A stretch of 48,603 nt of DNA from Propionivibrio sp. (lineage in GTDB: Bacteria > Pseudomonadota > Gammaproteobacteria > Burkholderiales > Rhodocyclaceae). A model generated the notes under the pieces. It worked only from the letters and a program-made list of their open reading frames with translations. It was not told the origin of the DNA and made no database searches. A program made the position numbers and the translations under genes. The stretch lies in the NCBI RefSeq assembly GCF_029255185.1, contig NZ_JAPUVO010000069.1:1-48603 (forward strand), given 5' to 3'. The stretch's first letter is position 1. Each line of letters starts with the position of its first letter. Below, one piece after another: positions 21,595-29,368 of the stretch.

Positions 21595-22542
21595 ATGAAG
21601 TTACAGCAACTGCGTTATCTCGTCGAAGTCGGTCGCTGTGGACTCAATGTTTCGGAGGCCGCCGAGGTGCTTTATACCTCGCAGCCGGGCGTTTCCAAGC
21701 AGATCAAGCTGCTCGAAGATGAGCTCGGTGTGGTCGTCTTCGAGCGCAGTGGCAAGCGTCTGACCGCCGTTACCGAGCCGGGCAAGCGGGTGCTCGAAAT
21801 TGCCGAGCGCATCCTGCGCGAGGCCGACAACATCAAGCGCGTCGGTGAGGAATATGCCGGTGGTGATTCCGGCAGCCTGGTGATTGCGACAACCCATACC
21901 CAGGCCCGTTACGCACTGCCTCTGGTGGTCAAGAACTTCATCGAGCGTCATCCGAAGGTTCGTCTGTCGATGCATCAGGGCAGCCCGACGCAGATCGCCG
22001 AATGGACGCTCAAGGGTGAGGCGAATATCGCCATAGCCACCGAAGCACTCGACCAGTTTACGCAACTGGTCATGCTGCCGTGCTACCAGTGGGGACACAG
22101 CGTTATCGCACCGGACGGGCATCCCATTCTCGCCGAACGATCAATTTCGCTGAATACGCTGGCGAACTGGCCGCTGATCACCTACGATCCAGCCTTTACC
22201 GGCCGTTCGCTCATCAACAAGGCGTTTGAACGCGCGCAACTGACGCCGAATGTCGTTCTCGCGGCGCTTGATTCAGATGTGATCAAGACCTACGTAAATC
22301 TTGGCCTCGGGCTGGGAATCATCGCCAGCATGGCGTATGACCCGGCGCGCGATGTCGGCCTACAGGCCATGGATGTCGGTCATCTCTTTGGCTCGAACAC
22401 GACGCGCATCGGTTTGCGGCGGGGAACCTATATTCGCCAGTACGAATATGATTTCATTGAACTGTTCGCATCACAATTGTCGAAAAAGGCCGTCGACATG
22501 GCGATGGCCGGTCCAGGAGCGGGTGATGAGTATCAGCTTTGA
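21595..22542 (+). CDS. cysB: LysR-type regulator CysB
   Basis: CysB (315 residues) is the sulfur-assimilation activator that responds to O- or N-acetylserine. The N-terminal MKLQQLRYLVEV and helix-turn-helix (about 15-45, EVLYTSQPGVSKQIKLLEDE) are nearly those of enterobacterial CysB; the effector domain follows with TTHTQARYALP and GLGLGIIASMAYD. The ATG at 21595 fits the family start. It is divergent from the TSUP-cys operon, its likely target. The gene ends 32 bases from the convergent LtaS-like gene. Confidence 0.93.
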   Translation: MKLQQLRYLVEVGRCGLNVSEAAEVLYTSQPGVSKQIKLLEDELGVVVFERSGKRLTAVTEPGKRVLEIAERILREADNIKRVGEEYAGGDSGSLVIATTHTQARYALPLVVKNFIERHPKVRLSMHQGSPTQIAEWTLKGEANIAIATEALDQFTQLVMLPCYQWGHSVIAPDGHPILAERSISLNTLANWPLITYDPAFTGRSLINKAFERAQLTPNVVLAALDSDVIKTYVNLGLGLGIIASMAYDPARDVGLQAMDVGHLFGSNTTRIGLRRGTYIRQYEYDFIELFASQLSKKAVDMAMAGPGAGDEYQL

Positions 22543-22574
22543 TCCAGCCGGTCGTCACTCCAAGGGACTGAGCC

Positions 22575-24509
22575 TTACTTCTTTTTCTCACCCAGATACT
22601 TGCCGCGGCCAAAGGCCAGTGAGGCAGCTTCATACCAGGCGACGGCCTCGCGTTGCAGCGCTTTTTCATCGAGCGGATGATCAGTACGTGGTGAGCCGGC
22701 GTGTTTATTGCCGGAGATTTGCACTTTGCGCCGTGGGTAAAGCATGACCAGCCGACCGTCGCGCAGGTAGCCTAGCGACTGATAATTGGCCACGAAGGCG
22801 CGCTCCGCGCCTCGTGGCAGACGGAAGATATCCTGCCCGAAGAATTTGCTGTCATAACTGAAATTCAGTTGCCCGAGCAGCGTCGGCGAGATGTCGATTT
22901 GCGACATCAGGCGATCAATCCATTGCGGCTTGATGTGCGCCGGCGCGTAAAAGAGGACGGGGATCTGGTATTTATCGATCGGGATTTCTCCGGTACCGCG
23001 GGCACTGGCGCCATGGTCGGCGGTGATGACAAAAAGCGTGTCGGCAAACCAAGGTTTCTTTTTTGCTTCGTCGATGAAGTGGCCGATCGCCCAGTCGGTG
23101 TATTTGACTGCGCCCTCGCGGCCAGTGCCTGAAGGAATGTTTATTCTCCCGTCAGGGTAGGTATAGGGGCGGTGATTGCTGGTGGTCATCACGTGTGCAA
23201 AAACCGGCTTCTTGCCGTTCGATTTCTGCAACGAGGCATCGATCTCCGCAATGACCTGATCGAACAGGTCTTCGTCGGCGACCCCCCAGATGTTTTCGTA
23301 ATGAATCTTTTCCTTCGCGATCACCTTGCGATCGATGACACGGTAATCGTTGTTGCTGAAAAACTCCTCCATATTGTCGAAGTAGCCGTAGCCGCCGTAA
23401 ATGTAGGCCGTGTCGTAACCTTTATTTTCGAAGATGTTGCCGAGCGAGAAGAGCTGGGCGTTGTTCGGACGCTTGACGATGGATTGTCCGGGTGTTGGCG
23501 GGATGGCCAGGGTCAGCGCCTCAAGGCCGCGTACCGTCCGGTTGCCGGTGGCATAGACCTTGCCGAAGGCCAGGCTTTCACGGGTGAGCTGGTCGATTCG
23601 CGGGGTCAGGCCGTGCGGGTCGCCCCAGGCGCCGATGAATTCGGCGCCGAGACTTTCAACGCTGATCAGTATGACGTTCAGATGCTTTTCGGCGCCTTTG
23701 GCACGAATGGCATACTGCCTGTCTTCAAGGTCAGGCGAACGCCAGGAGTCGGCTGTTTGCGATTGTTTTTCGCGCATGATGGCGAACGCTTCTTGCTCTG
23801 GCAGGGAGGCATAGAGGCGCATGTAATCCATTTCGTTATTACGTGCCGCTGCGGCAAATTCGTAGAAGCCGTTGCCGGCAAGTTCGTTCAGCGAATCGTT
23901 GGAAAAACGGTTTTTGGCGGTCGATGAGACGCCGTAAAAAAGCGCAATGGGCAGCGCGATGGCCAGCAGAATCCCGGTTAATCGGCCCGTCCAGCTCAGG
24001 GGTAGAGCAGATGATGTCCAGCAACGACGGATCAACGGCCAAGACACGAGCAGCGAGACCAGCGCCAACCCAATCAGAATTTTCCCTACCGGGTAACTCT
24101 GCCAGATATTGCCAATGACTTCGTGCGTATAGACCAGATAGTCGACGGCGATAAAATTGAAACGGCTGGCGAATTCATCCCAGAAAATCCACTCGGCAAC
24201 TGCCGTGAACAGCAGCAGAAAAACCGATACGGGAATTCCCAGGCTGATCAGCAGCCGGGGCAAGCGCCAGCACGCGACCCGGTTCGGCAATAGGGCCAGA
24301 AACAGCATCAATGGGGCGAGCATAAAGGGCGCGGTGACCAGGTCGTAGGTGCTGCCGATCAAAAATGACAGGGCCAACTCCTGCCCACCACCTGAGACAT
24401 CCGGTCGCATGGATAGGACGATCCGGGTCAGAAATGAAACGAGACACAGCGCCAGCGCCAAGTACGCGGCAACGGCGTAGCGCTGGCGGAAAATCCGGGA
24501 AAAGATCAT
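22575..24509 (-). CDS. LtaS/MdoB-type membrane sulfatase-fold phosphotransferase
   Basis: A 644-residue protein with about five transmembrane helices in residues 10-195 and a large periplasmic sulfatase-fold domain (about 275-600). The metal ligand Glu285 is in ISVESLGAEF, the probable catalytic Thr325 in ATGNRTVRG, and the second metal site in ITADHGAS. This is the layout of lipoteichoic acid synthase and of OpgB/MdoB-type phosphoglycerol transferases. Gram-negative members modify periplasmic glucans or surface glycans with phosphoglycerol or phosphoethanolamine. The substrate here is unknown. No good ribosome site precedes the ATG. Confidence 0.8.
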   Translation of the reverse strand: MIFSRIFRQRYAVAAYLALALCLVSFLTRIVLSMRPDVSGGGQELALSFLIGSTYDLVTAPFMLAPLMLFLALLPNRVACWRLPRLLISLGIPVSVFLLLFTAVAEWIFWDEFASRFNFIAVDYLVYTHEVIGNIWQSYPVGKILIGLALVSLLVSWPLIRRCWTSSALPLSWTGRLTGILLAIALPIALFYGVSSTAKNRFSNDSLNELAGNGFYEFAAAARNNEMDYMRLYASLPEQEAFAIMREKQSQTADSWRSPDLEDRQYAIRAKGAEKHLNVILISVESLGAEFIGAWGDPHGLTPRIDQLTRESLAFGKVYATGNRTVRGLEALTLAIPPTPGQSIVKRPNNAQLFSLGNIFENKGYDTAYIYGGYGYFDNMEEFFSNNDYRVIDRKVIAKEKIHYENIWGVADEDLFDQVIAEIDASLQKSNGKKPVFAHVMTTSNHRPYTYPDGRINIPSGTGREGAVKYTDWAIGHFIDEAKKKPWFADTLFVITADHGASARGTGEIPIDKYQIPVLFYAPAHIKPQWIDRLMSQIDISPTLLGQLNFSYDSKFFGQDIFRLPRGAERAFVANYQSLGYLRDGRLVMLYPRRKVQISGNKHAGSPRTDHPLDEKALQREAVAWYEAASLAFGRGKYLGEKKK

Positions 24510-24542
24510 CGGGGGGTTGGCCAGTGCTAAAAAGGGTGAATG

Positions 24543-24593
24543 CTACTCGAAACGCGCCAGCTCCAGCATTATTTGTGTCACGTTTCCGAGTAG
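24543..24593 (-). promoter_or_regulatory. long imperfect hairpin upstream of the LtaS-like gene
   Basis: CTACTCGAAACG (24543-24554) pairs with CGTTTCCGAGTAG (24581-24593), 12 pairs with one bulged base, around a 26-base loop. It lies between the PP-loop gene and the LtaS-like gene. A run of Ts lies some ten bases beyond it on the minus strand, too far for a standard terminator. It may still end the upstream transcript or control the downstream gene. Confidence 0.4.
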
Positions 24594-24612
24594 TTACCCC
24601 TTCCAAGTGAAA

Positions 24613-25791
24613 TCATTCCCCGAGTCGGACCTCCTGGGGCGTCAACCCCAATTTTCTGAGAACCTTGACAATGATGGTTTCAAGAAGAAACCTTCTTTTT
24701 ACGGCGAGTTCAACAAGTTCGAAGATATTCCGCCAGTAGACCGGATCGTTTTCTCGGAAGCGGATCATTTCTGAAAATTCGGGCTCAAAGCTGCAGTAAC
24801 CGATGGTTTTTATATCAATAGCCGTCATAACCGCGAGCACTTGATTATTGGTAATAATCGGTGAAGAGTCTTTCTTGGGGAGAAGGTGCCCGATCTCGCG
24901 GTCAACTTCAACGGAGCCTTTGTCTGGCCTCCAGGCGACCAGCGGTAGAATGTAGCGGGGGATTTTGCCACGTTCTTTTCCAGTTCCGTCCCAAAACAAC
25001 TTTTGATCTTCTTCGGAGAAAATATCTTTAATCTTGAATCCCGACCGTCTTTCCATGCGATCTAGCAGAGTGCGCGAGCACATATCCTCAAATGGCATTT
25101 CATAATAGGTATGAAATTGCATAATCTGCTCTTGTGCGAAATCCACACCGGCCAGAACCAGAGGAATATCCATCAAGTAGCCGTAGTAGAACCCCAAAAA
25201 CTGGTTCAGCGTGCCGTCAAGGCGGTCAACGGTTTGATAACTCCCTTTTTGACCGACGTTACGCAAGGTATAGCGGTAAAGGGTTTTATAAACCGTCGAA
25301 CTTGGTTTGAAACGGATGTGGTCGATGTCCAGTTTTTGTGCGACTTCAAGAGAACGATCGAGGGATACTGCACTGTAAAAACCGTTGTCCCAGGTCATCA
25401 GCAATAGTCTGAGTCCAGGATAGTCGCGGCGTAGGCGATTCAACATGAAAATACTGTCGCGGCCGCCACTGAACAAGACGATGGCATCATAACGACCGCG
25501 GCCTTTGCCCTGGTAGTTCTTAAGGAGCTCGTCCAATTCTTTCACTTGGTGGGCAACATACTTTTCTCGCCACGCCTGCTCCTCTTCGTTCAGGCTTTTG
25601 TTGTAATCCGTGCACAGATTGCAAACGCCATTGGTCAGCGTGACATAGGGAACGCGGGAAGAGATCACGCATTGGGTACAGCGTGGGGCGATCATTCCTC
25701 GAAATATCCAGCGGATAAAAGGCCATATGCTTTGTGCAACAAAGTCAAAAGATCGAATTTCTTTTACGATTTGTTGATCAACCTTAGCCAT
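24613..25791 (-). CDS. PP-loop ATPase with an N-terminal zinc ribbon (N-acetyl sugar amidotransferase-like)
   Basis: A soluble protein of 392 residues. The N-terminal part carries CTQC (Cys38, Cys41) and CNLC (Cys57, Cys60), a zinc ribbon with the NGVCN pattern seen in WbpG-like N-acetyl sugar amidotransferases. A PP-loop SGGRDS (108-113) in YDAIVLFSGGRDSIF shows an ATP-pyrophosphatase domain that adenylates a substrate. The rest (about 200-390) is unlike tRNA thiolases that I know. Its ATG overlaps the stop of the RRM-like gene by one base. The substrate is unknown: a sugar or a small acid or amide are options. The base composition is lower in GC than that of the flanking core genes. Confidence 0.65.
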   Translation of the reverse strand: MAKVDQQIVKEIRSFDFVAQSIWPFIRWIFRGMIAPRCTQCVISSRVPYVTLTNGVCNLCTDYNKSLNEEEQAWREKYVAHQVKELDELLKNYQGKGRGRYDAIVLFSGGRDSIFMLNRLRRDYPGLRLLLMTWDNGFYSAVSLDRSLEVAQKLDIDHIRFKPSSTVYKTLYRYTLRNVGQKGSYQTVDRLDGTLNQFLGFYYGYLMDIPLVLAGVDFAQEQIMQFHTYYEMPFEDMCSRTLLDRMERRSGFKIKDIFSEEDQKLFWDGTGKERGKIPRYILPLVAWRPDKGSVEVDREIGHLLPKKDSSPIITNNQVLAVMTAIDIKTIGYCSFEPEFSEMIRFRENDPVYWRNIFELVELAVKRRFLLETIIVKVLRKLGLTPQEVRLGE

Positions 25792-26024
25792 TATTCGCCC
25801 CTTAAATGTACGCGCAAATGTGTTGCGCCGAATTTTCGTCCATCCAATTCGTCCACAGCCCGCTCGGCATCGTCGAGACTAACTAGTGCATAGGGCTCGA
25901 AAGTAGGATAACTCCAGTCCGCAAAGATCTCGATGGGGCCATCGGGACGATAGGGTTGGATCAGGTCGTGAATGAATTCTTCAGTGGCCCGAAAAGGGAG
26001 AGCTCCAATGAAAACTGTTTTCAT
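25791..26024 (-). CDS. small RRM-like (RNA recognition motif) protein
   Basis: A 77-residue protein that fills one RRM fold: beta1 with an RNP2-like KTVFIGALP (2-10), helix ATEEFIHDLIQPY, beta2 IEIFADW, beta3 YALVSLDD in the RNP1 position, helix AERAVDELDG, and beta4 HLRVHLRG. The RNP1 is weak, lacking the usual Gly-Phe-aromatic pattern. The ATG at 26024 is fixed by a perfect AAGGAGG ribosome site at about 26028-26034. It is translationally coupled to the PP-loop gene, one base shared. A free-standing RRM in an enzyme operon is unusual. It may bind RNA or simply be an interaction module. Confidence 0.6.
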   Translation of the reverse strand: MKTVFIGALPFRATEEFIHDLIQPYRPDGPIEIFADWSYPTFEPYALVSLDDAERAVDELDGRKFGATHLRVHLRGE

Positions 26025-26068
26025 AATCCTCCTTAGCTGCGGCGTGTTGACGGGGATGATCGGCGTGA

Positions 26069-27649
26069 TTAAGAACAAATACCATACCGACCTGGCGCGA
26101 TGATTCCTTCCGGATCCAGGGCTAATTTTAAGCGCCTGATCGTTTCCAGCCGGCCCTCTGGAATACCCGATTGTTGAAAAAGAATTCCTTTGCGATACCT
26201 TTCAACATTATTGGCGGACAACGTCAAATCGATCGCTTTGTAAGCCCGATGGGCTCTTTCAGCTTCTTCGGCGGACGATTTGTCGAAGCAAATATTTAAA
26301 ATGCAGACAAGGTGAGCATGGTCAATGAAAGTCATGGTTATCGGCATTTCAAATTTGAATTCTGCAAAAATCGGCTTCAGAATCTGAATTAGCTGCAAAG
26401 CTGATTTTTCATCTGCTTTGATGACTGGTCCAATCCAAATAAGACCCAGATCGGACTTTTTTCCTACCTTCCAGTGAATATGTTCGAGGGGGCGCTCGGT
26501 GGGAATTCCCTGGCAAAGACGGTGAACAGACTCAAGCGAGTCAATTCGTCCAATCATTTCTCTGAGTGTTTTGGGCGATCTCCAAAGCACGAATTTGGCA
26601 ACCCCTCTCATTAGCTTGAATTTTCGGTCAGAGAAAGTCTGTATTTTTCCGATTCCCTTAAGACGTGATTTTAAAATCCGAATGGACTCATTGACTTGCA
26701 CCTTGGTGCCATAAAGAGCACCGACCCCGGCCCAAAGTGGTGATTTGATCAGAGAAAATTTCATCATCGTCTGGCAATCAGCATCAGAGAGTACAACCTC
26801 CCTCGATAAATGGGGGGGGAAACGATGGGTCGACATAAATATTCGTGTCGCATTCGCGACATGCAAAAGATTTTGCATCACACCGAGCTGCCTTAGTTCC
26901 TGGATTAAGGGTATCGCAGATATAAAGCTTTCTTTACTTTTGAAATGAATGAGGAAGGTGACGATTGTTTCTGGCTTGCGCAACAAAGGAATGCGAAGGG
27001 AGGTGACGATGCCAAAATTGGACTGGATGAGCAAAGGTGCCAGGTTGGGTCCCAATCCCGGAAACCTTCCCGTACGCAGGGTATTTCCGTTGCCAAGAAC
27101 GGCCTCGGCCTCGAGAATGTGTTCTCTGTGGTTTCCCAGCGCAGTATGCCCAAAACCTCCATCGAGCGCGTTGCCAACTATGCTGGAATCGGGTGGGGCC
27201 CCGGTAACATCAGCGATCCAACGATCGCCTTGATCGAATAAAAATTTACACAGCTGTTCTTGCGAAACTCCGGGCTCCAAGGTGACCTCGCCAGCCTGTG
27301 GGTCGAACTCATGAATCCTGCTCATTCTCTCCAAGCTGACGACGACTTGTCCGTCACCGGGAGGGCTTATCTCACCATACCCGATGTTTCGTCCCCGACT
27401 GATCGCATAAAGCTTGATGCCATGCTCAGAAGCCAAGCTGACTATGGTGCTCACCTCCTGGCTGTTCTGGGGGTAAATGATTGCTGGAACAGTTTTTGAG
27501 TAAGAAAGGCTGTTTTTGGTTTTCTCCACAATGCGAAGCTGATCGGTGAGCACATGTTCTATGCCCAGGAGCGCAATAGTTTCGCCGAGAAAGTCTTTTA
27601 GCTGACCGACTTGGATTTCCGTGTCGTTTTTTGCAAATGGAGTGTTCAA
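26069..27649 (-). CDS. FAD-linked oxidase of the PCMH/VAO family (4-cresol dehydrogenase-like flavoprotein)
   Basis: A protein of 526 residues with an N-terminal FAD-binding PCMH domain (about 50-225): PAIIYPQNSQEVSTIVSLA, AISRGRNIGYGE and DSSIVGNALDGGFGHTALG. The C-terminal substrate domain ends RLKLALDPEGIIAPGRYG, the closing motif of vanillyl-alcohol oxidase/p-cresol methylhydroxylase proteins. The family oxidises phenolic or other alcohol-type substrates; the substrate here is unknown. The start is a TTG at 27649, behind GAGGTAGG, because a stop codon lies three codons upstream and no ATG occurs before residue 107. A run of eight C lies at 26819-26812. No cytochrome partner is present. 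The gene is AT-richer than its surroundings. Confidence 0.75.
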   Translation of the reverse strand: MNTPFAKNDTEIQVGQLKDFLGETIALLGIEHVLTDQLRIVEKTKNSLSYSKTVPAIIYPQNSQEVSTIVSLASEHGIKLYAISRGRNIGYGEISPPGDGQVVVSLERMSRIHEFDPQAGEVTLEPGVSQEQLCKFLFDQGDRWIADVTGAPPDSSIVGNALDGGFGHTALGNHREHILEAEAVLGNGNTLRTGRFPGLGPNLAPLLIQSNFGIVTSLRIPLLRKPETIVTFLIHFKSKESFISAIPLIQELRQLGVMQNLLHVANATRIFMSTHRFPPHLSREVVLSDADCQTMMKFSLIKSPLWAGVGALYGTKVQVNESIRILKSRLKGIGKIQTFSDRKFKLMRGVAKFVLWRSPKTLREMIGRIDSLESVHRLCQGIPTERPLEHIHWKVGKKSDLGLIWIGPVIKADEKSALQLIQILKPIFAEFKFEMPITMTFIDHAHLVCILNICFDKSSAEEAERAHRAYKAIDLTLSANNVERYRKGILFQQSGIPEGRLETIRRLKLALDPEGIIAPGRYGICS

Positions 27650-27693
27650 CTTTACCTACCTCGACGGTGACTGCAATTGGACCGATGCGACTA

Positions 27694-27722
27694 ATCCTAT
27701 CGAGTTGTTCCCGACGTTGCAA
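27694..27722 (-). promoter_or_regulatory. promoter of the FAD oxidase-RRM-PP-loop operon
   Basis: On the minus strand TTGCAA (27722-27717) and TAGGAT (27699-27694) are separated by 17 bases, about 45 bases upstream of the TTG start. A small inverted repeat AGAAC-6-GTTCT lies further upstream at about 27740-27757 and could be an operator. Confidence 0.5.
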
Positions 27723-27834
27723 GCGGCTGTCGCGGGTTTTTAGAACTGTCCGGTTCTGTAGCACATGAATAAATGAGGTAATCTCCCGGCTTTGCCGGGG
27801 GACTCCCTAGGTTTGACCGAGCGCTACGGTCGGC

Positions 27835-27872
27835 CTGATTCTTCTGACTCGATCAAAAGTTAGGAGAATCAG
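27835..27872 (+). promoter_or_regulatory. stem that covers the tnpA ribosome-binding site
   Basis: CTGATTCT (27835-27842) pairs with AGAATCAG (27865-27872), which overlaps the AGGAG site at 27862-27866 and ends one base before the tnpA ATG. IS200 is known to keep transposase low by such a structure. Confidence 0.6.
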
Positions 27873-28004
27873 ATGAGAGAGTACCAGAGTCTTTGTCATA
27901 CGAAATGGGATTGCAAATATCACATAGTTTTTATACCGAAGAGGCGAAAGAAGCTTATTTTTGGAGCCATTCCTGTCCTGTGTTCGAATCCAGTCAAAGG
28001 GTAG
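27873..28004 (+). pseudogene. tnpA: IS200-type transposase TnpA, N-terminal fragment
   Basis: Forty-three codons from ATG 27873. The first 31 residues, beginning MREYQSLCHTKWDCKYHIVF, match the start of Y1 HUH transposases of the IS200 group (LAHTRWNCKYHIVF type). After IFGAI the sequence changes to unrelated residues and stops at TAG 28002-28004. The His-hydrophobic-His and catalytic Tyr regions are absent, so it is inactive. Confidence 0.75.
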
Positions 28005-28129
28005 GCGTTTTGTTGACTATGCAACTTGGAATTTTTACGCGTCATATTTTGTCAGCGACCAAAAAAGCGTAGACTGGTGAGCCAGGCTGGGAGCAGCAAT
28101 CCCGGCGCTAGATCGATTTCCAGTGATTG

Positions 28130-29368
28130 ATGACCATGACCAACACCGCCGCTCAACTCCTGAATATAGCCCCTGCAGCTCAAATCCCCGCTCCTGATTT
28201 CAACCGCCTGTTTTCAGAAAGAGCGCGAGCGATTCAGAGTTCGGCCATTCGAGAAATTCTCAAGGTCACCGAACGTCCCGAAGTGATTTCCTTTGCTGGC
28301 GGACTGCCGGCGCCAGCGACCTTTCCTGTTGAGGAACTGCGTGCCTCCATCGACCGGGTACTTGCCGCAAACGGACGGGAGGCACTGCAGTACAGCACTA
28401 CGGAAGGCTATGCGCCGCTGCGCGAGTGGATTGCGGCGCGTGTCAGCACGCTGCAGGCGCCGGTTTCGCCCGATGAAGTGCTGATGGTTTCCGGCTCCCA
28501 GCAGGGTCTGGATCTGCTGGCTAAGGCACTGCTCGATCCGGGCGACACCGTTCTCGTCGAAACCCCGACTTACCTGGGCGCCCTGCAGGCTTTTTCGTTG
28601 TTCTCGCCGAAGTTCGTCTCGATTGCCTCCGATGAGGATGGTCTGCTGCCCGATGCGCTGACTGATTCCATGCGCGGAGCAAAATTCCTTTACTGTCTGC
28701 CGAATTTCCAGAATCCGACCGGGCGTCTATTGTCTGAAGCACGTCGCTATCGCCTGGCCGAGCGTGCGCGTGAACTCGATGTGCTAATTTTGGAAGATGA
28801 CCCTTACGGTGCACTTTCCTATGATGGCGAAACGCCTCCATCGATTCGTTCGCTGGCGCCGGAACGGACGGTCTATATGGGCTCCTTTTCGAAAGTGCTG
28901 GCGCCGGGCCTGCGCCTGGGCTATGTGATTGCGCCTCTGGCCCTGCGCAGCAAGCTGGTCCAGGCCAAGCAGGCGACCGATCTGCACACCGCAACACTTT
29001 CGCAAATGGCGGTCCATGACGTGATCAAGGACGGTTTTCTCGATACGCATATTCCGACGATTCGCAAGCTCTACCGTGAGCAGTGCAACGCCATGCTGGC
29101 AGCACTGGCCCATCACATGCCCGAAGGCGTGCGCTGGAACACGCCGCGTGGCGGCATGTTCCTGTGGGCTGAACTGCCTCGTGGAATGGATGCATCGGTC
29201 ATCCTGAACCGCGCCGTTGAGTTGAATGTGGCCTTTGTTCCGGGGGCTCCTTTCTATGCCGCCAACCCGGTTATCGAGTCGCTTCGGTTGGCCTTTGTCA
29301 CCGTGCCGCCACCGCGAATCGAAGAGGGTGTCGAGCGCCTGGCCGGAGTAATTCGCGCCAGGCTGTAG
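28130..29368 (+). CDS. PLP-dependent class I/II aminotransferase
   Basis: A 412-residue fold-type I aminotransferase. The PLP lysine is Lys255 in GSFSKVLAPGLRLGYV; the cofactor pocket also shows SGSQQGLDLL, PNFQNPTGR and EDDPYG. The whole resembles LysN/2-aminoadipate or multi-substrate aromatic aminotransferases without the GntR domain of MocR proteins. Start codons at 28127 (TTG), 28130 and 28136 (ATG) are all possible; none has a clear ribosome site. It stands alone between the IS remnant and the glycosylase gene. The substrate is not determined. Confidence 0.85.
   Translation: MTMTNTAAQLLNIAPAAQIPAPDFNRLFSERARAIQSSAIREILKVTERPEVISFAGGLPAPATFPVEELRASIDRVLAANGREALQYSTTEGYAPLREWIAARVSTLQAPVSPDEVLMVSGSQQGLDLLAKALLDPGDTVLVETPTYLGALQAFSLFSPKFVSIASDEDGLLPDALTDSMRGAKFLYCLPNFQNPTGRLLSEARRYRLAERARELDVLILEDDPYGALSYDGETPPSIRSLAPERTVYMGSFSKVLAPGLRLGYVIAPLALRSKLVQAKQATDLHTATLSQMAVHDVIKDGFLDTHIPTIRKLYREQCNAMLAALAHHMPEGVRWNTPRGGMFLWAELPRGMDASVILNRAVELNVAFVPGAPFYAANPVIESLRLAFVTVPPPRIEEGVERLAGVIRARL

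Follow-up and report, generated by a model that had tools for sequence, protein, structure and literature searches.

What could a flavoprotein oxidoreductase, a free-standing RRM protein and a PP-loop ATPase accomplish together in a Propionivibrio genome? The three are encoded side by side within the window, the whole 48,603-nucleotide stretch of DNA that was analyzed (contig NZ_JAPUVO010000069.1). The original prediction described them as one cassette of three genes in the same direction, and three minus-strand genes were confirmed at this position (Table 1). The perfect AAGGAGG claimed for the RRM gene is present, and the claimed one-base stop/start overlap between the RRM and PP-loop genes reads TAATG, with base 25791 common to both. 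Translation of the RRM gene probably begins with the ATG at 26024 rather than at 26078, the open reading frame start picked mechanically. The cassette is AT-richer than its surroundings, as had been proposed (G+C content, 0.481, versus 0.580 for the window without positions 24001 to 28000). The proposed IS200 remnant at its border stood in part: a fragment of 43 codons followed by a stop is there, but its Y1_Tnp match (20.9 bits; E value, 4e-4) falls just below the cut-off of 23. The proposed promoter, TTGCAA-17-TAGGAT, did not hold up; the hexamers exist (minus strand, 27722 to 27694), but 8 of their 12 bases agree with the consensus (counted by hand), a signal not above chance, and a scan with a threshold of 9 of 12 left them unlisted. 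That scan found 2 promoter-like sites in positions 22400 to 28300, with 4.4 expected from shuffles, and so no excess.

Table 1. Positions of the cassette genes and neighboring features in the window
Feature	Position	Strand	Remarks
VAO/PCMH-type flavoprotein oxidoreductase	26069..27649	-	526 aa, TTG start picked mechanically
Free-standing RRM protein	25791..26024	-	77 aa
PP-loop ATPase with four-Cys zinc-ribbon pattern	24613..25791	-	392 aa; distant to WbuX N-acetyl sugar amidotransferase
Shine-Dalgarno-like AAGGAGG of RRM gene	26028..26034	-	
IS200-like transposase remnant at cassette border, not counted as a functional part	27873..28001	+	Y1_Tnp match

Homologues of all three genes lie together elsewhere. 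A PP-loop orthologue (70 to 71% identical) was found in four genomes of the genus Candidatus Accumulibacter, and in all four loci its immediate upstream neighbor is an RRM gene of the same subfamily as that in the window (52 to 57% identity to the window RRM). Each locus also has a VAO/PCMH flavoprotein (32 to 34%) at most 5 kb from the orthologue and, inside the unit, two LolC/E-like permeases between the PP-loop and flavoprotein genes; no such permeases adjoin the cassette in the window. Because the four loci are close kin, this conservation counts as one comparison of two lineages. The orthologue occurs in 4 of 28 genomes of the Accumulibacter genus; for the genus of the window genome, the figure is 1 of 28. 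The genome scan relied on two short peptide patterns and may miss relatives. At the level of the order, the PP-loop protein had matches at an E value of 0.001 in 37 of 300 genomes, with neighborhoods viewed for the window genome and five others. The window and Accumulibacter PP-loop proteins form one clade (clade A; support, 100/100), which comprises five genomes, including the window's, once loci from the same genome are grouped (L051/L062/L112, L065/L072, L066/L074/L113 and L067/L073). The Accumulibacter cassette copies are under purifying selection, with dN/dS values of 0.02 to 0.08 for the PP-loop gene and 0.09 to 0.21 for the RRM gene (six pairs each) and of 0.12 for the flavoprotein gene (three pairs, L067 left out). 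The FAD oxidase, RRM and PP-loop genes are an accessory unit common to the window genome and part of Accumulibacter, and the RRM and PP-loop genes are a conserved pair.

The flavoprotein carries a PCMH-type FAD-binding domain (FAD_binding_4, PF01565; 83.9 bits; E value, 1.1e-23; gathering threshold, 26.4), in common with the VAO/PCMH 4-phenol oxidoreductases (p-cresol methylhydroxylase, vanillyl-alcohol oxidase, eugenol oxidase). The PDB entry it matches best is a “FAD-binding oxidoreductase” (9fge; 3.5e-40), with p-cresol methylhydroxylase (2.2e-36) ranking next and then eugenol/vanillyl-alcohol oxidases (eugenol oxidase, 1.1e-31), and it also matches carbohydrate oxidases (7e-8 to 5e-7); 8s7p, one of the 4-phenol oxidoreductases, aligns with residues 56 to 524 at 5.4e-37. 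A Tyr-Arg pair near the C terminus, which we take to be phenolate-binding in these enzymes, is retained in 10 of 10 aligned flavoprotein rows. A His or Tyr links the flavin in those VAO/PCMH 4-phenol oxidoreductases that bind it covalently; unlike them, the window protein has neither at the expected flavin-linking position in an alignment by eye (stretch KVGKKSDLGLIWIGPV), and the same holds for the corresponding segment in the Accumulibacter and C140-type rows. Opposite the His of 8s7p stands Asp or Leu, depending on the gap, and an extra segment precedes the flavin-linking site, missing in row G063 (both by eye). In the tree, the window flavoprotein groups with that of the Accumulibacter cassette (support, 88/92), on long branches; between window and Accumulibacter, dN is 0.75 to 0.82 for the flavoprotein and 0.21 to 0.22 for the PP-loop protein. 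The window flavoprotein may be a replacement, since it and the Accumulibacter one share only 32 to 34% identity and differ in position (its gene abuts the RRM gene in the window and lies beyond the permeases in Accumulibacter). A role as an N-acyl tyrosine desaturase was also considered and was weakened by PMC12479983, where the proposal is that known producers of N-acyl dehydrotyrosine work with an adenylyltransferase/cyclase and a nitroreductase rather than a VAO.

The PP-loop protein has an SGGRDS loop (S108-G-G-x-D-S113) and a four-Cys zinc-ribbon pattern (C38, C41, C57, C60; a predicted metal site), both invariant in 20 of 20 aligned homologues and both in common with the WbuX/WbpG N-acetyl sugar amidotransferases (TIGR03573). 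In a sugar amidotransferase variant of the pathway, the PP-loop enzyme would add an amidine or amide to an envelope sugar that the flavoenzyme oxidizes, with the RRM protein as passenger or regulator. WbuX is indeed the nearest curated family (91.5 bits), the sole PDB sequence match is the N-acetyl sugar amidotransferase 8wex (E value, 0.0012), and the carbohydrate oxidase matches of the flavoprotein point the same way. Against this, the window protein and the four relatives scanned, five of five members, score below the TIGR03573 cut-off of 203.2 (89.7 to 111.6 bits for the relatives), a three-row profile ranks GMP synthase (1.1e-4) above 8wex (0.0059), and the flavoprotein is far closer to p-cresol methylhydroxylase and eugenol oxidase. 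WbuX-type enzymes have HisH/HisF-like ammonia-supplying partners nearby; none was seen adjacent to the window enzyme, and neither such partners nor O-antigen or nucleotide-sugar genes were recognized by eye in the open reading frame lists (mostly partial sequences) of the window and loci L044-L050, L062-L063, L065-L067 and L069-L070. We judge the sugar variant unlikely, and an ordinary sugar amidotransferase in an O-antigen cluster, the alternative raised alongside the original prediction, is not favored. Weak matches of the PP-loop protein to the LarE sulfur transferase (0.0066) and QueC, like the GMP synthase match of its profile, were counted against the best explanation, set out below.

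The window RRM matches PF00076 at 24.2 bits (E value, 3e-5; gathering threshold, 20.7) and its Accumulibacter orthologue at 42.6 bits (5.5e-11). RNA-binding RRMs have RNP1 and RNP2 motifs with stacking aromatics. At the motif positions assigned here, RNP2 is retained (VFIGAL/IFISSL) with its Phe, and RNP1 reads E-P-Y-A-L-V in the window, which deviates from the usual pattern, and E-P-Y-A-Y-V in Accumulibacter, which would keep both RNP1 aromatics; RNA binding may or may not persist. The protein has the RRM_1 profile and RNP2 in common with free-standing bacterial RRMs of the Rbp type (NF058537), but cassette RRMs, at 18 and 36 bits, fall short of the Rbp cut-off of 100, and RNP1 is altered. 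They form a subfamily of their own, at 139 to 185 bits versus at most 54 elsewhere in the class sample (369 genomes; own RRM, 139 bits; next best, 54). The subfamily occurs in 3 of 297 family genomes (E value of 1e-6 or better), each with the PP-loop gene, and in 4 of 30 neighborhood loci, which are the clade-A loci (the 30 include two overlapping pairs, L045/L068 and L066/L100).

An RRM that is an operon-specific RNA-binding regulator, acting by autoregulation or mRNA placement without enzyme contact, would suit a small free-standing bacterial RRM with RNP2 kept and, in Accumulibacter, both RNP1 aromatics, and it is compatible with the pathway proposed below. We hold it to be somewhat unlikely, as no conserved leader RNA was found upstream of the RRM gene in four loci (by eye, only about the last 40 to 50 bases align clearly) and an Rfam search of positions 22000 to 29000 gave no match at gathering and no structured RNA, though the target could lie elsewhere. 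Quite improbable is an RNA-linked enzyme, for which the RRM protein would bring tRNA or another RNA to the PP-loop enzyme, which would then modify the RNA or use an aminoacyl group: the PP-loop superfamily includes tRNA-modifying enzymes, the RRM profile score exceeds gathering and the two genes are closely paired, but profile searches reported no TilS, TtcA or MnmA type match for the PP-loop protein, RNP1 is altered in the window, and the neighbors in the conserved loci are permeases and a flavoenzyme.

Paralogous PP-loop genes (about 30% identity) have an acyl-AMP ligase and an NAD_binding_4 (thioester-reductase-like) enzyme adjacent in 17 of 18 loci. A LolC/E-like permease (best match, 49 to 57%) is present in 13 of these loci, 26 to 29% matches in 3 and none in 2; FeeM or exosort_acyl relatives occur in 7 and a VAO in 2. 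The 18 are the loci fetched, with two G427 fragments left out, several cut at contig ends and many from one family, and the LolC/E and thioester-reductase names score below the cut-offs of those families. In the loci of relatives at 31 to 34% (overlapping L045/L068, L069 and L070), the queries for RRM, permease and VAO gave no match.

FeeM-type N-acyl amino acid synthase clusters have been tied to PEP-CTERM/exosortase (Craig, Cherry and Brady 2011, as cited in PMC7293339, PMC4897644 and PMC11072679). Resemblance to such clusters extends from the paralogous loci, with their recurring PP-loop and LolC/E-like permease genes, to clade-A locus L066, where a TIGR03694 member (239 bits; cut-off, 112) lies nearby, as does a protein that shares 67% identity with a FeeM member. 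Locus L067, also in clade A, encodes the PEP-CTERM protein EDSAP-1 (261 bits; cut-off, 100), L065 gave a weak PEP-CTERM match (18.4 bits; E value, 0.0027), and L062 showed no exosortase-system marker in the DNA fetched. The window cassette differs in having an RRM gene and in having no synthase, ligase, PEP-CTERM or exosortase marker seen beside it; no reductase, FeeM gene or permease pair is adjacent either, and ligase, reductase, FeeM and permease genes occur elsewhere in the genome. The exosortase link is not general, because the window genome has no exosortase match and five of five other genomes searched have one.

An LtaS-like gene lies 103 bases past the PP-loop gene on the same strand, and the original prediction had it perhaps following in the route. 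It is not part of the unit: the four Accumulibacter loci have no LtaS-like match, and five other genomes of the genus carry an LtaS-like relative (E value of 1e-60 or better) but lack the PP-loop orthologue. A phosphoglycerol or lipoteichoic-acid-like pathway built on the cassette and this gene is accordingly extremely improbable. Other settings were considered and rejected. PADLOC gave no defense-system match at 0.01, and no relative of the PP-loop or RRM protein was confirmed in viral contigs. Among plasmid records, 7 match the PP-loop protein (none over 80% of its length, all below 60% identity) and none the RRM; 258 match the flavoprotein (all below 60% identity, 22 over at least 80% of it), as expected of a large family.

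From its context, we tentatively propose that the cassette serves to tailor and export an envelope molecule of an acyl-amide or lipid-like kind, and that the RRM protein most likely assists the PP-loop enzyme as its dedicated partner. Points that weigh against this reading are the two-lineage basis of the conservation, the low flavoprotein identity, the lack of ligase, reductase, FeeM and permease genes beside the window cassette, the missing exosortase match and the altered RNP1. The small-molecule modification route of the original prediction gains support from the recurring LolC/E-like permeases, to which the paralogous loci add an acyl-AMP ligase, a thioester-reductase-like enzyme and, in some, a FeeM-type synthase. 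WbpG/WbuX-type enzymes adenylate their substrate and then replace the leaving group by a nucleophile. In the proposed module, substrate oxidation would fall to the VAO-type flavoenzyme; the PP-loop enzyme would activate a carboxyl or amide by adenylation, after which an amine or some other nucleophile would displace the leaving group; and the LolC/E-like pair would remove the product from the inner membrane. As no permeases adjoin the window cassette, this last step would depend there on homologues encoded elsewhere in the genome. A predicted amphipathic N-terminal segment may place the PP-loop enzyme at the membrane (hydrophobic moment, 0.63, the protein maximum; 0.52 in the vicinus copy, the second highest there). 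The RRM protein would be a dedicated small partner, since the same subfamily stands directly upstream of the PP-loop gene in five genomes and the samples searched showed no case of it without that gene. The idea in the original prediction that the RRM protein guides or docks the PP-loop enzyme would agree with this co-occurrence. Very improbable is a bolder form, with the RRM as an obligate PP-loop subunit that delivers RNA (e.g., aminoacyl-tRNA) as the amine donor for an exported acyl-amide lipid; if true, a new pair of enzymes would carry out an RNA-dependent step of lipid biosynthesis.

The literature searched, which covered few subscription papers, did not describe this three-gene association. 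It is unusual for a free-standing RRM to be found with a single metabolic enzyme and not apart from it, and the pair would offer a simple two-protein system for testing whether RRMs act as partners of bacterial enzymes. Beyond it, the cassette draws attention to a broader set of betaproteobacterial loci that combine a PP-loop protein, an acyl-AMP ligase, a thioester-reductase-like enzyme and Lol-type permeases. These loci resemble pathways for envelope lipids, and some lie in Accumulibacter, which removes phosphorus from wastewater.

The flavoprotein, RRM, and PP-loop genes were predicted to run in one direction, and they do so in the window (table), with the RRM stop and the PP-loop start overlapping by one base and the RRM ATG preceded by AAGGAGG. 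As also expected from the original prediction, the cassette is AT-richer than its surroundings (G+C content, 0.481, versus 0.580 in the window outside positions 24001 to 28000) and is adjoined by an IS200-like fragment; the promoter proposed for it was no better than chance.

Cassette genes and the insertion sequence fragment at their border
Feature	Positions	Strand	Basis or location
VAO/PCMH-type flavoprotein	26069-27649	minus	family matches
RRM protein	25791-26024	minus	family match
PP-loop ATPase, four-Cys zinc-ribbon pattern	24613-25791	minus	family matches and pattern
IS200-like fragment, truncated transposase start	27873-28001		between the cassette and an aminotransferase-like gene at 28127

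The combination of flavoprotein, RRM, and PP-loop genes is real and is shared between the window genome and Accumulibacter; no description of it was found in the literature library searched. In a family search of 121 genomes, 10 matched the PP-loop protein (E value of 1e-10 or better), and one genome besides the window genome, G317 (Accumulibacter), did so at 71% identity. A scan of a genome collection (84,980 genomes, according to its description) yielded seven confirmed PP-loop loci, namely, three in Candidatus Accumulibacter at 70 to 71% (assigned through their contig coordinates to G437, G420, and G416, of the same genus as G317), three at 31 to 34%, and one short match at 32%. The orthologue was located in 4/28 Accumulibacter genomes and in 1/28 genomes of the window's own genus, the window genome only. 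Homologues of all three genes, anticipated to recur together, were found together in 4/4 Accumulibacter orthologue loci. These loci are closely related to one another, which effectively leaves two lineages to compare. Each of the four has the order RRM, PP-loop, two permeases, and VAO flavoprotein, with the permeases on the opposite strand and the flavoprotein on the same strand as the RRM and PP-loop genes. Identity to the window copies was 52 to 57% for the RRM and 32 to 34% for the flavoprotein, and the cassette genes are under purifying selection among the Accumulibacter copies. G+C content of the Accumulibacter cassettes (0.595 to 0.610) was about equal to that of their surroundings (0.591 to 0.626), so the low G+C content of the window cassette fits its acquisition from elsewhere.

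A profile of the cassette RRM matched 3/297 family genomes (E value of 1e-6 or better), each of which also carries the PP-loop gene. In a class-level sample, 29/369 genomes matched the profile (E value of 1e-10 or better); the cassette's own copy scored 139 bits and the next 54 bits, with a gap between, and matches at 54 bits and below are read from these scores as probable other RRMs. The cassette RRM was found in none of 18 fetched loci of a paralogous PP-loop (~30% identical), nor in L098, a fetched locus that holds VAO, ligase, reductase, and permease genes together without a PP-loop gene.

In the PP-loop tree, the window and Accumulibacter clade was separated at 100/100. The flavoprotein tree also grouped the two (88/92); because of long branches, this grouping is likely, not secure. 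The window flavoprotein is far more diverged from the Accumulibacter copy than the neighboring cassette genes are, and it may be a replacement of the original. VAO flavoproteins of three fetched loci (L086, L094, and L098) were 46 to 83% identical to a copy on contig C140 of the window genome, are encoded in or adjoining ligase/reductase/permease loci, and have in common an extra segment that alignment row G063 lacks. Separately, PP-loop relatives at 31 to 34% identity occur in Betaproteobacteria (L045/L068, L069, and L070); no RRM, permease, or VAO match was found in the DNA fetched for these loci, and the L070 neighborhood is, by eye, transport and catabolic in look.

The window genome itself carries the paralogous PP-loop (~30% identical); the gene is on contig C53, where a FeeM-type synthase and a LolC/E-like permease adjoin it. 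At the end of contig C94, reductase and ligase genes are arranged and oriented as they are beside the paralogue elsewhere, so the two contigs may be neighbors in the genome. An acyl-AMP ligase and an NAD_binding_4 reductase adjoin the PP-loop gene in 17/18 paralogue loci fetched, the remaining one (L044) ending at a contig edge. Among the same 18 loci, the best LolC/E-like permease hit was 49 to 57% in 13, hits were 26 to 29% only in 3, and none was found in 2; relatives of the FeeM or exosort_acyl queries occurred in 7, a PEP-CTERM-like protein (text pattern) in 8, and a VAO flavoprotein in 2. The one permease scanned scored over the Pfam FtsX cutoff and under that of LolC/E, and the one NAD_binding_4 reductase scanned scored under the thioester reductase cutoff; the names LolC/E and thioester reductase therefore mean "like" only. 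N-acyl amino acid synthases have been linked to PEP-CTERM/exosortase systems (PMC7293339, PMC4897644, and PMC11072679, citing Craig et al. 2011).

For this cassette, with its observed co-occurrence, gene order, purifying selection, and family matches, we propose that the flavoenzyme would oxidize a substrate, the PP-loop enzyme would carry out adenylation and substitution, the permeases would export the product, and the RRM protein would serve the PP-loop enzyme. Several points speak against a firm reading of this mechanism. Exosortase had no match in the window genome and had matches in 5/5 other genomes searched; the flavoprotein is divergent; the PP-loop profile matched GMP synthase better than the N-acetyl sugar amidotransferase 8wex (both weakly), and the protein weakly matched LarE; and other enzymes have been proposed for known N-acyl dehydrotyrosine producers (PMC12479983 and PMC7293339). 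Each part of the cassette, taken singly, is of a known kind.
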